From the IMG/VR virus record IMGVR_UViG_3300021378_000103, positions 1 through 30,528 of that record: DNA of 30,528 nucleotides. One strand, given 5' to 3'. Below are positions 2,435 through 6,450 of the stretch, one piece after another. The DNA is from a virus. The translations under genes were made by a program, and so were the position numbers. The notes below the pieces were generated by a model. The model was not told where the DNA came from. It saw nothing but the letters and a program-made list of their open reading frames with translations, and made no database searches. Position 1 is the first letter of the stretch. Each line of letters begins with the position of its first letter.

Positions 2435-4426
2435 ATGGGGCGAAACGTGGTGCCAGCCGAACAACTCAAAGCCGACCGCGCCGCAATCAAGGCCGATCTG
2501 GAATACATGACAGCCCGTTGGGGTGAACTGTCACAGCCTGCCGTTTTCGAGGTGCGGGCCTTCAAGGAACACAGCCAGCCCCAGACCGCCCGTTTTAAGC
2601 CGGAATGGCTGGACGACGCCGTGACATGGGTCGCGGACATGAATGCCATCGGCTTCAACACCTACGCCGTCCGCAACCCCATTCGCGCCGATGTCTCAAA
2701 GTCCGCGTCCGATGCGGACATCATTGCCGCATTCTTCTTATGGGCCGACTGCGACGAGGCAAACAGCGCCGAAAACGTGCGCCGTTGGGATGGCCCGAAG
2801 TATTCCGCCGCCGTCACAACCGGCAAAATCCCAGAGGTCCGCGTCCACACCTATTGGGCGCTGGATACACCGGAAACCGATCTGGACGCATGGCGGGCCG
2901 TGCAGATGTCCATTGCCGCCCACTTTGGGTCGGACAGGACCGTCATCAACCCAAGCCGCATCATGCGGATTGCTGGCACAGTGGCCTACCCAGCAACCCA
3001 CAAGCAAGAGCGCGGCTATATCCCCGAATTGGTCACGATCCGCACGACATACCCAGACGCCCGCGCACCGGTCACACTGGACCAAATGCGCCGCGCCTTT
3101 GGCCTGACACAGCCCGCGCCCCCGTCGTCATCCTTCACGATTGAAACCGGACCGCCGTCGCTTGATCGGGAACGCCTCAAGATCCAGGCGCTAGAAGGGC
3201 GGGAATGGCATAGCGCCGTGATCCGCCTTGTGGCGTCCTACGTTGGCAAGGGTCTGTCAGATGACGAGATCCACAGCCTGACCGATCCGCTGACGCTGGC
3301 AGGCTATACGGTCGAACAGACGCGCCGCGAGGTCCAGGCGGCCATAGAAGGCGCAAGGCGCAAAGGGTGGACGCCAGAGCCGCAACCGCAGCCCATAGAA
3401 CCCACGCCGCAAGTCATCGCGGACTTCAAGATTGATAGCAGCGCCGACTTTCTGGCCGACCTACAGCCGCTGGAGTACCTCGTTGACGGCATCCTGCCAT
3501 CAGGCGTGGTCTACAGCCTCACAGGCTTTGCAGGGCACGGCAAGACGACGCTGGCGCTACAGTTTGCCTTATCCATCGCCCAGGGCGAGACATTCAGCGA
3601 CAGAGACACCAGCAAGGGCGCTGTTCTCGTTCTGGCAGGCGAGAACCCCTACAACGTGAAGTGGCAATACGCCGCCGCTCTGGCCGCCAGGGGGCTAAAC
3701 GCGGCTGACGTGGACATCCACTGGATACAGGGCCGGTTCAGCGTTGACCAATTCTCTGAGGTGGTCCGCGCCAAGATGCGGCAAATCCCCAATCTCAAGC
3801 TGGTCATCGTTGACAGCCTTCAAGCCTTCTTTGAGGGCGACAATGACAACGACAATTCGCAGATGGTCACAATGGCCCACAAGATGCGGGAATTGGCGAA
3901 CATAGAAACGCGCCCCGCGATGCTCGTCATTGCGCACCCGGCGGGCAAGACGCCATCAAAGGACAACCTCGTCCCGCGTGGCGGCGGGGCCTTCTTGAAT
4001 GAGATTGACGGTAACCTGACCGTCTGGTCACAGGACGCCTCACAACAAACCCTGCACCACTCACAGAAGTTTAGGGGCGCTGGCTTCGATCCGCTTGAAT
4101 GGGTGATGCAGATCCACGAATTTGACCACCTCACAGACATCCACGGCACACCGCTCAAGCTGCCCGTCAGCCGCCCCGAAATGGCCATAGAGCGGGTCAA
4201 CCGTGAAGTGAAGATGGACAGCCTGCTCAAGCAATACCTCGACTGGGTGGACCAGGCTCGCATTCCGTCAGAGCGGGACGCAGCGGTTCAGTGGATGGTG
4301 TCACGCCGCAAGGTCCGCGCCGTCATTGATACGGCCAAGGACGAGAAACTCATCAAGCGCCACGCCAAGACATACGTCCTGACACAAGGCGGGAAAGACT
4401 TTCTGGAGGCCGAAAATGCGGGCTGA
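2435..4426 (+). CDS. Fused RepB-like primase and RecA-like (RepA-type) replicative helicase
   Basis: This 663-residue protein has three parts. Residues about 30-220 resemble RepB-like archaeo-eukaryotic primases: a DxD-like FLWADCDE (D105, D107), a histidine in VHTYWALD (H138), and the strongly conserved NPSRIMRIAGT (172-182). Residues about 340-570 are a RecA-like ATPase of the RepA hexameric helicase group, with Walker A GFAGHGKTT (364-372, K370) and Walker B LKLVIVD (454-460, D460). They are followed by the polar loop region MLVIAHPAGK. The last ~70 residues look like a winged-helix domain (VQWMVSRRKVRAVIDTAKDE). The protein would prime and unwind DNA at the phage fork, a functional analogue of T7 gp4 built from different domains. 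A candidate origin follows directly. Confidence 0.93.
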   Translation: MGRNVVPAEQLKADRAAIKADLEYMTARWGELSQPAVFEVRAFKEHSQPQTARFKPEWLDDAVTWVADMNAIGFNTYAVRNPIRADVSKSASDADIIAAFFLWADCDEANSAENVRRWDGPKYSAAVTTGKIPEVRVHTYWALDTPETDLDAWRAVQMSIAAHFGSDRTVINPSRIMRIAGTVAYPATHKQERGYIPELVTIRTTYPDARAPVTLDQMRRAFGLTQPAPPSSSFTIETGPPSLDRERLKIQALEGREWHSAVIRLVASYVGKGLSDDEIHSLTDPLTLAGYTVEQTRREVQAAIEGARRKGWTPEPQPQPIEPTPQVIADFKIDSSADFLADLQPLEYLVDGILPSGVVYSLTGFAGHGKTTLALQFALSIAQGETFSDRDTSKGAVLVLAGENPYNVKWQYAAALAARGLNAADVDIHWIQGRFSVDQFSEVVRAKMRQIPNLKLVIVDSLQAFFEGDNDNDNSQMVTMAHKMRELANIETRPAMLVIAHPAGKTPSKDNLVPRGGGAFLNEIDGNLTVWSQDASQQTLHHSQKFRGAGFDPLEWVMQIHEFDHLTDIHGTPLKLPVSRPEMAIERVNREVKMDSLLKQYLDWVDQARIPSERDAAVQWMVSRRKVRAVIDTAKDEKLIKRHAKTYVLTQGGKDFLEAENAG

Positions 4427-4444
4427 TTTGACCCCAAAAACGCT

Positions 4445-4646
4445 TGGTCCGCTTTGCGAAAATGGCCGGACCAACGGACCAAATGAAAAGCGGACCACGG
4501 ACCGGACCAAGAGCGGACCAAAGGCCATTTTCGTTAAGCAAAAACAAAAGGTTATGCGTGGACCACTCTTTGGTCCGGTCTGGTCCAACTGGTGTTTTGG
4601 TACTGGTCCGGTCCGCAGTGTGTCCGTAGGACACTACGGCGGACCA
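4445..4646. repeat. GGACC/GGTCC iteron-like array, candidate replication origin
   Basis: Thirteen GGACC or GGTCC cores lie between 4446 and 4645, mostly as CGGACCA or its complement TGGTCCG. Forward copies start at 4467, 4475, 4491, 4498 (variant), 4503 and 4514. Mainly inverted copies follow, at 4571, 4581, 4604 and 4609, with single copies at 4445 (inverted), 4559 and 4640 (forward). Between the two clusters, 4521-4558 is A/T-richer (about 63%) with runs of A. A hairpin, CCGTAG 4624-4629 with CTACGG 4634-4639, lies at the right edge. Iterons facing an AT-rich segment directly downstream of a primase-helicase are what a phage or plasmid origin looks like. The frames across it give no convincing protein. 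A regulatory site for a phage protein is the main alternative. Confidence 0.6.
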
Positions 4647-4693
4647 ACCGAACCATCGGGCCAAGATTTGAACCAATGGAAAGGATGTCGGCA

Positions 4694-5281
4694 ATGAAAG
4701 CCAAGCAGGCCCGCGCCATGCGCCAGAGGAAAGATGACCGGATGATCCACGGTCCGGTGGACAAGCAGTCCATCGAATGTGATTTCGTCCTGGGTCCATA
4801 CGACGCCGCTGTCAGGGCAATGGGCATCAAGTGGGGCGTTGACCGTCTGCCAGACTTGGTGACGCCGGATCTGGCCCAACGCTTCGGCAAGGCGATGGCC
4901 GCGCTGAATGAGGCCGTCGAAGCCAACGACCCTGAGTTGGTCAAGGCGAAGGTCATCAACGCGGTGAAGGGCATCAACGCGCTGGACGCAGCCGCCGAGG
5001 CATCCGGTGCGCCGAAGGCAAGTCCGCATGTCATCGAATTCGAGATCGACGGCAACAAGTGCGCCTTGCTCACCAATGACGAGGCTTGGCCCGCGCTAAA
5101 GGCGCAGCGGCCCGATCTGTTCTTTTACACGATGACCGACATCAAGGGCATGATCCGCGCCGCAGGGCCTACCGGCGAATTGCTGGAGGAAACCCGCAAG
5201 CATTTCCCAGACGCAAAGATCGTCCCAACCAATCGCGGCAAGCCCAATTACGACCTGGGCGGCGACTTCATTCCATTTTGA
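4694..5281 (+). CDS. Uncharacterised replication-region protein with SSB-like C-terminal tip
   Basis: The 195-residue protein has a basic N-terminus (MKAKQARAMRQRKDDR), a helical middle (residues about 35-105, with alanine-rich helices), and a C-terminal alpha/beta part (VIEFEIDGNKCALLTND, DLFFYTMTDIKGMIRAA). It ends DLGGDFIPF. That ending closely resembles the bacterial SSB tip (acidic residues then IPF), which binds PriA, RecQ, exonuclease I and other repair proteins. It suggests binding to host SSB partners or mimicry of SSB. ATG 4694 was chosen because AAGGA at 4681-4685 is ideally spaced; ATG 4676 or 4685 are alternatives. I recognise no full-length family. Confidence 0.85.
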   Translation: MKAKQARAMRQRKDDRMIHGPVDKQSIECDFVLGPYDAAVRAMGIKWGVDRLPDLVTPDLAQRFGKAMAALNEAVEANDPELVKAKVINAVKGINALDAAAEASGAPKASPHVIEFEIDGNKCALLTNDEAWPALKAQRPDLFFYTMTDIKGMIRAAGPTGELLEETRKHFPDAKIVPTNRGKPNYDLGGDFIPF

Positions 5282-5295
5282 AAGGACCAACCGAA

Positions 5296-5697
5296 ATGAA
5301 TGCACACACACGCACAGTCGCGCAAATGGCCCACAACAATATAATCGGCAGCGCATCCTTCCAAGACGCCTACCGCCGCCGTTGGGAGGCCGAGGTTTTC
5401 AAATCGCGGACCACTCAGGAACAGGATGCCAAGCGCAAGCAGCGCGACGACGCGCGGTCCATCATCAACCGGGATCGGCACCGCCAAATGTGGGAGGCCC
5501 AGATCAGGCCGCTTCTTGCGAAGTACCCGCAGCCGATCAGGGCGCTGTCTGAAAGCACCGGCATCCCGCATCACCTGGTCAACCAGATCCTGCGGTGGGC
5601 GAAATACGAGGGCCTGGTGATGAAGGGCAAGGATACCCGCGTCCCTGACAACCGGGGGCAGACGGTGCGACGCCCGACATGGAAGCTGGCGAAGTGA
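5296..5697 (+). CDS. Small basic protein with C-terminal winged-helix-like domain
   Basis: The 133-residue protein is preceded by AAAGGA ten bases from its ATG. Residues about 20-70 are highly charged and helical, rich in Arg, Lys, Gln and Asp (RTTQEQDAKRKQRDDARS). Residues about 76-115 read as a winged helix-turn-helix: YPQPIRALSESTGIPHHLVN is helix-turn-helix-like and LRWAKYEGLVMKG would be the wing. The likely function is DNA binding, either as a regulator of the next transcription unit or as a replication accessory such as an origin-binding or helicase-loading protein. The location next to the repeat array supports but does not prove the second. No family name can be given. Confidence 0.82.
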   Translation: MNAHTRTVAQMAHNNIIGSASFQDAYRRRWEAEVFKSRTTQEQDAKRKQRDDARSIINRDRHRQMWEAQIRPLLAKYPQPIRALSESTGIPHHLVNQILRWAKYEGLVMKGKDTRVPDNRGQTVRRPTWKLAK

Positions 5698-5919: not shown

Positions 5920-6450
5920 ATGTGGTGGTTTGGATATGCCAAAGCAGGGCGGGAATTTGAAGTGCAGCAAAGTTTACGCGACCTTGGTATTCGGTGCGAG
6001 GTGCCGCGCAAGGTCGAGGCCAAGAGAGTGCCAACAAAGCGAATGCCGGTCGCGGTGACAACGCCATACCTGGGCAACTACGTCTTCATCGAATGCAGCG
6101 GCGACCAGTGGCACCTTGCCCACACCGTCAAGCACCTGGCCAGCACCATGGTGCCGATAGGTCAGCGCGAGGCCGAGCGCGACCTGGCGTCATTCATGCG
6201 CAGGACCGAGGACGCATACCAGGCCCGCGCAGCCGCCATAGAGGCCGGTGAGCGGGTGGTGGAGTACAAGCAGGGCGACACCGTGGAAATCCTGTCAGGT
6301 CCGCTGGCGGGCAAGTTGGCGACGTTCCGGCGCATTGTCGAAACGGCGCAGGATCTGTTTCCAAGGCTTGAGGCCGATGTCGTCATTCTTGGCGGTACGA
6401 CGAAAGTGAACTTGGACCCAATTCATGCAAGACGCCACGCCAGCACCTAA
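5920..6450 (+). CDS. NusG/RfaH-family transcription antitermination protein
   Basis: The 176-residue protein has the two-domain NusG layout. Residues 1 to ~100 form an NGN domain: MWWFGYAKAGREFEVQQSLR at the start, then PYLGNYVFIE (49-58), the equivalent of the conserved PxLPGYVF strand. Residues about 117-145 form a KOW motif (KQGDTVEILSGPLAGKLATF). NusG paralogues bind the beta-prime clamp helices of RNA polymerase, suppress pausing, and couple to ribosomes or Rho. A phage copy directly before the long virion operon, with a promoter and structured leader just downstream, suggests an operon-specific antiterminator for late genes. GAGAGG upstream gives a reasonable ribosome binding site. The family is clear; the target is inferred. 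Confidence 0.92.
   Translation: MWWFGYAKAGREFEVQQSLRDLGIRCEVPRKVEAKRVPTKRMPVAVTTPYLGNYVFIECSGDQWHLAHTVKHLASTMVPIGQREAERDLASFMRRTEDAYQARAAAIEAGERVVEYKQGDTVEILSGPLAGKLATFRRIVETAQDLFPRLEADVVILGGTTKVNLDPIHARRHAST

Follow-up and report, generated by a model that had tools for sequence, protein, structure and literature searches.

The Rep helicases of the SaPIs use a C-terminal domain to recognise iterons that lie immediately 3' of their own gene (PMC7581432). In the Gram-negative PICIs, two iteron sets flank an AT-rich region in the same place, and one of these elements has been shown to be a replicon; the layout is not shared by any other known bacterial replicon according to the authors of that work (PMC6092414). 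The plasmid RSF1010 combines iterons with an AEP primase and with primase sites on single strands (PMC4538821). In pRN1, an element located just 3' of the ORF904 gene is essential, and its structure is conserved while its sequence is not (PMC4234260). PrimQH-type AEP fusions of mobile elements join a primase, a P-loop ATPase (RepA-type ones included) and a winged helix, and for a related family it has been inferred that the winged helix recognises the origin, as far as the available text of that account goes (PMC5862659).

The stretch of viral DNA analysed here (the window, 30,528 nucleotides, positions 1 to 30,528 of IMG/VR record IMGVR_UViG_3300021378_000103) contains a repeat array 3' of a primase-helicase gene (Table 1). 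It is very probable that this array is a phage replication origin, bound by the winged helix of the upstream primase-helicase itself and giving a bidirectional theta start. The best reading, by analogy, is that the module represents the SaPI/PICI rep-ori layout on a RepA/RecA-fold helicase, in elements that carry genes for terminase and virion proteins, and with a hairpin added. As in SaPIbov1, SaPI1 and EcCICFT073, the origin would lie directly 3' of the initiator-helicase gene, and its short iterons would form two groups that flank an AT-rich stretch; whereas the Rep C-terminal domain of these satellites binds the iterons, such binding is here predicted from the winged helix and from co-variation. 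The satellites use DUF927 or D5/Primase_Cterm (AAA+/SF3-like) helicases, in contrast to the RecA-type RepA helicase (AAA_25) and the conserved hairpin found here in tailed phages and prophages. A literature search for this exact combination in open-licence papers found nothing closer. Genes for a large terminase and for a structural protein of the virion are present in the record, which fits a phage, although capsid-forming satellites may carry such genes too.

Table 1. Features of the proposed replication module and its surroundings (window coordinates)
Feature	Position	Strand	Description
Primase-helicase, proposed initiator	2435..4426	+	663 aa; AEP/PrimPol-like N-terminal part, AAA_25 (RSF1010 RepA-like RecA-fold) helicase, C-terminal winged helix
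C-terminal winged-helix domain, proposed iteron-binding domain	4157..4423	+	P0001 residues 575-663; AF2 pLDDT 88; tracks the word
Recognition-helix codons	4304..4342	+	Residues 624-636; in close relatives, 625 and 628 correspond to two bases of the word
Open frame across array, probably not a gene	4416..4697	+	93 aa, not conserved
Left iteron cluster	4445..4520	.	Inverted TGGTCCG (4445) and 6 forward cores (4467, 4475, 4491, 4498, 4503, 4514)
A-rich spacer, candidate melting region	4521..4558	.	38 bases, 39% A, 63% A+T; counterparts in relatives
Right iteron cluster, mainly inverted	4559..4615	.	Forward 4560; inverted 4571, 4581, 4604, 4610
Hairpin between two inverted iterons (4604-4615 / 4640-4646)	4604..4646	.	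GTGTCC-GTA-GGACAC at 4620-4634; candidate single-strand priming/recognition site
Conserved gene 3' of array	4694..5281	+	Product with SSB-like acidic tip (GGDFIPF); homologues in 86 loci
Binder proposed in the original prediction	5296..5697	+	No homologue in related loci

GGACC or its complement GGTCC occurs 13 times in 4446-4645 and 67 times across the whole record. Dinucleotide shuffles of the record (n=300) gave at most 7 such cores per 200 bp (mean 3.3, 0/300 above 7), and the densest 200 bp elsewhere in the record, with the array excluded, holds 3 cores, so that the dense array described in the original prediction is borne out. The extended word CGGACCA is present in forward copies at 4467, 4475, 4491, 4503, 4514 and 4640, in inverted copies at 4445, 4571 and 4604, and in partial copies at 4498, 4560, 4581 and 4610. 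Two iteron sets (4445-4520 and 4559-4646) thus stand on either side of the spacer, as they do in L003 and other relatives. The layout agrees with the earlier description of a left forward cluster, a 38-base spacer and a mainly inverted right cluster; the core between the clusters, which had been called AT-rich, is A-rich but not strongly AT-rich. The array begins 18 bp past the stop codon of the primase-helicase gene, a position that is kept in relatives, and an Rfam search for structured RNAs across 4300-4900 gave no match at E <= 1.

The primase-helicase ORF matches AAA_25 in Pfam (4.7e-27). A profile built from eleven of its relatives matches RSF1010 RepA (1g8y, E=8e-12) and, with its N-terminal part, the PrimPol AEP domain 6zp9 (E=2e-6); the same profile gave no sequence match to the RepB' primase. 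The RSF1010 (IncQ) system, consisting of RepA/RepB'/RepC, oriV and ssiA/ssiB, shares with this locus iterons and a RepA-type helicase (assigned here by sequence, with the hexamer as a prediction), and its AEP primase has a candidate counterpart in the PrimPol-like N-terminal part, but the window has one polypeptide instead of three, with a fused winged helix replacing the separate RepC initiator, and instead of long direct iterons it has 7-bp words in both orientations, with one hairpin inside an inverted iteron pair. ORF904 of pRN1 is likewise an AEP primase-helicase with a C-terminal winged helix and a 3' element, but has an SF3 helicase and a 100-bp stem-loop without iterons, where the window has an AAA_25 helicase and iterons. 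The PrimQH-type AEP fusions resemble the window protein in domain architecture, whereas the iteron array and the co-variation described below are absent from the available text of PMC5862659.

Because the AF2 model of the full-length primase-helicase was too weak (pLDDT 54), its C-terminal domain was modelled alone. The last 89 residues are predicted to form an H-H-H-strand-strand-H fold (pLDDT 88), with helices at 39-46 and 50-62 and strands at 66-69 and 72-75 in domain numbering. The top Foldseek matches of this winged helix are the CggR DNA-binding domain with its operator, the MarR-type MepR and MntR. The fold model and the co-variation together indicate that this C-terminal winged helix is the likely binder of the array.

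Relatives were collected from viral contigs and genomes through helicase homology, and the array calls rest on those loci. For each, a 6-mer was counted on either strand in the 450 bp 3' of the helicase gene and compared with 100 shuffles. Downstream sequence was long enough in 116 loci, and in 97 of these one 6-mer was more frequent than in any shuffle. The array is therefore retained in relatives, whereas its word is replaced from relative to relative, which upholds one half of the expectation that the repeats would recur beside conserved neighbouring genes. At least four of the remaining loci have an array that an inserted gene has pushed downstream (L024, L064, L075 and L084), and L002 is similar; at L024 the gene inserted between helicase and array (3032-3930) displaces the array and does not break it.

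The word varies by lineage. It is TGGTCCG in the window, TGTCCGG in L003, L031, L032, L104, L112 and L117, TGTCTGA in L002, L004 and L005, TGTCCCA/G in L025 and L026, TGTTACG in L028, TGTGACG in L039, TGGAACG in L027 and L033, TGTAGAA in L007-L013, TGTATGA in L014-L017, CTGTGGA in L045, L056 and others, and CCTCACC in L055 and others. Of these loci, L104 and L117 are prophages of Rhodobacteraceae. Among 397 genomes of the family to which the host of L104 belongs, 20 prophage-type loci were found, most of them with arrays, and their words include GGTAACG, GGGAACG, TGTGACG, TGTCCCG and more. The terminase-encoding plasmid L126, from a sphingomonad, carries an array of TGCGGAAGT, and the E. coli plasmid element pSTEC1024_3 (L127) carries an array of AAAGTGGG at 3951-4250, after a helicase-type AAA ATPase; judged by sequence, this is the same origin plan in an element like the capsid-forming satellites. 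The L127 element also has AlpA, Icd-like, PerC-type and capsid genes. The helicase-domain relatives in mycobacteriophages (Saguaro, L128) have no array after the gene. A megablast of the whole window against cultured phages, a scan of viral contigs with back-translated P0003 and a second scan for closer relatives yielded no match, no match and no additional viruses, respectively, and no phage record covering 80% of the initiator was found as a cultured relative.

By sequence comparison, the word tracks the C-terminal winged helix more closely than it tracks the helicase core. In a dereplicated set of 46 loci, words are more alike where C-termini are more identical, once helicase identity has been removed (partial r 0.22, 0/500 permutations), while the reverse correlation, of helicase and word with C-terminal identity removed, is 0.00. 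In the larger set of 90 loci, in which the helicase is also weakly correlated with the word, the partial r is 0.25 for the C-terminal domain and 0.14 for the helicase, and among pairs whose helicases are 50% identical or more the two values become 0.60 and −0.04. In the 60 cases in which the nearest neighbours by C-terminus and by helicase differ, the word is closer to that of the C-terminal neighbour (similarity 0.64, versus 0.56 for the helicase neighbour; Wilcoxon p = 0.016). Averages over 30-residue blocks identify 571-663 as the best tracker of the word. The recognition helix does not stand out in sliding-window mapping, where single windows of the fast linker 321-341 score equally high, on few pairs, and L029, which has the word of the window and yet a rather different winged helix, counts against the association. 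At L032 (4023-6050) the helicase and winged helix are alike (~72% over the last 330 residues) and the N-terminal primase-like domain is different; the primase module is exchanged there, and the word stays with the winged helix.

In the seven closest relatives the recognition helix reads SR[W/Y]R[M/A][E/D/Q]Q, and two of its residues predict two bases of the word, a sequence-level pairing whose two positions were picked after inspection of six sequences. Where the helix has W, the last base of the word is G (L003, L032, L024), and where it has Y, that base is A (L002, L004, L005, L088). An E in the helix is matched by T at word position 5 (L002, L004, L005, L024), and a D or Q by C (L088, L032, L003). 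All four combinations are present. The helix of L024 (SRWRAEQI) led to the expectation of TGTCTGG, and an array of this word, with 11 exact GTCTGG copies, was then located 0.9 kb downstream; the expectation preceded the location of the array but was written down only afterwards. L088 and L005 are 90% identical over the last 330 residues, and both have mixed arrays, with 8 GTCCGA and 4 GTCTGA copies in L088 (7010-7230) and 9 GTCTGA and 2 GTCCGA copies in L005 (4190-4420). From their sequences, these two arrays are apparently in transition between words, and such mixtures would follow from a copy-by-copy turnover of the arrays. The window itself has R at both code positions (SRRKVRAV), and the base after GTCCG in its array is C in 5 copies, G in 4 and T in 3.

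The right end of the array holds a hairpin at 4620-4634 that the original prediction had not mentioned, and the DNA fold of the segment 4604-4646 has a z of −4.4. Relatives share a common plan of iterons, A-rich spacer, iterons and a G+C hairpin. The stem sequences are unrelated among relatives, while pairing and placement are kept, as in GGCGTGTCC-CTA-GGACGCGCC (L003), GGGGGTTTC-TTTA-GAACCCCCC (L088), CCCCCCCTCCC-TTTA-GGGAGGGGGGG (L026), CCCACGGCCC-TTTA-GGGCCGGGGG (L033) and ATGGTTTCCCCCC-TTTA-GGGGGGGAACCAT (L104). An unbiased best-hairpin search placed 39 of 89 loci above all 20 shuffles, which is moderate evidence, and 32 of the 89 have loops ending in TA; in the window this search did not recover the hairpin of the conserved plan, as another hairpin scores higher. 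The hairpins have no T-run and are thus not plain terminators. RSF1010 has ssi hairpins as priming sites, where the modules described here have a candidate hairpin that is conserved in form, and by analogy with these ssi sites and with the stem-loop of pRN1, the hairpin may perhaps be a priming site for the fused primase.

In all 14 viral records for which GC skew was calculated, the minimum of the detrended cumulative skew lies 0.1-4.6 kb from the array, irrespective of the strand of the module (Fisher p 1.8e-6 by circular distance, a treatment that is approximate since most of the records are contigs not known to be complete). In the window, as a point against the origin reading, the skew forms a broad trough at 3.5-7 kb without a sharp point, with its minimum at ~5.6-5.9 kb, some 1.2-1.4 kb from the array. 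The skew minimum that the original prediction had looked for at the array is thus found near it, and the pattern fits bidirectional replication from the array.

The same features could be read as an operator/terminator region, at which the winged helix or another phage protein controls transcription from the helicase gene to the late genes, with replication starting elsewhere. Transcription repressors are the best fold matches of the winged helix, the hairpin follows a stop codon and the downstream genes keep the same direction, all of which would suit such a region. Around 12 copies in both orientations, within 200 bp around an A-rich spacer, are nevertheless the usual plan of an origin and not of an operator, there is no T-run behind the hairpin, the skew minimum lies near the array in 14/14 records, and the known counterpart of this layout is an origin; an operator region is thus improbable.

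An origin bound mainly by a protein of the 4694 type, which would then load the helicase, is a still less probable arrangement. In 86 loci a homologue of the 4694 gene adjoins the 3' end of the array, and almost every one of the products ends in an SSB-like tip, DDxIPF/W (DDDIPF, DDEIPF, DDPIPW), but about 20 loci keep the array in the absence of the gene, and the word follows the C-terminal domain of the helicase. The suggestion that the 4694 product binds the array is therefore probably wrong, in spite of the conservation of this protein in phages. It matches no family in Pfam or PHROG at E 1e-3, and it may assist replication as an accessory protein, by recruiting host SSB partners. For the other binder suggested earlier, the product of 5296, none of the other loci has a homologue, indicating that it is not the conserved binder.

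The array had also been described as lacking a convincing frame. An open frame of 93 codons does run across it, coupled at both ends to the neighbouring genes, but its product has no homologue in any related locus. L003 has an 89-aa frame that is similarly coupled, and among 81 loci plus frames across the array are open in 47 against 29.7 expected from dinucleotide shuffles, whereas minus frames are open in 38 against 37.2 expected. The plus-frame excess counts against the origin reading, since an array that acts purely as a DNA site gives no account of it; one reason could be that ribosomes leaving the helicase gene run on into the 4694 gene. No plus frame is open in L002, L004, L005 and L088, which make up four of the eight closest arrays, so that translation is not a conserved function there. 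A translated gene that includes the array and overlaps its neighbours at both ends, with the repeats as codons, is thus highly improbable, as the words moreover occur in both orientations and in all frames and their replacement would scramble any product.

The origin reading, already put forward in the original prediction, is well supported at the level of sequence by position, by relatives, by GC skew and by co-variation with the initiator-helicase. Computation shows the array and its hairpin in a placement that relatives conserve, the correspondence of word and winged helix, and a position close to the skew minimum. In the mechanism proposed for this origin, the C-terminal winged helix would bind the ~7-bp iterons (TGGTCCG/CGGACCA) that flank the A-rich spacer, helicase rings would be assembled at the iterons by a self-loading initiator primase-helicase, the spacer would be melted, and bidirectional theta replication would start from the array. 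The hairpin in the inverted iteron pair at the right end probably helps when single-stranded, and may perhaps serve as the start site of the fused primase.

For a widespread group of phages known only from uncultured material, these results provide a probable origin together with its initiator. They also extend the origin plan of SaPI/PICI beyond satellites and to a helicase of unrelated fold. Since the word and the recognition helix change in pairs, the specificity of origins, their incompatibility and the evolution of both can be tested directly from sequence. More tentatively, the arrays and winged helices might constitute a single large lock-and-key family that diversifies fast, in which the word is set by a few residues of the recognition helix, many phage origins are mutually independent, and a structure-conserved hairpin serves as a built-in priming site, amounting to an IncQ-like replicon in one protein and 250 bp that has spread through uncultured tailed phages and prophages.

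Two further genes lie in the neighbourhood of the module. Upstream of the primase-helicase gene, the window encodes a Gp2.5-like single-strand binding protein (1632-2378; PHROG 112, E 6e-13), with a homologue within the flank of just one other fetched locus (L039). In the interval between origin and terminase, 5920-6450 encodes a NusG-like product, a transcription antiterminator by PHROG.
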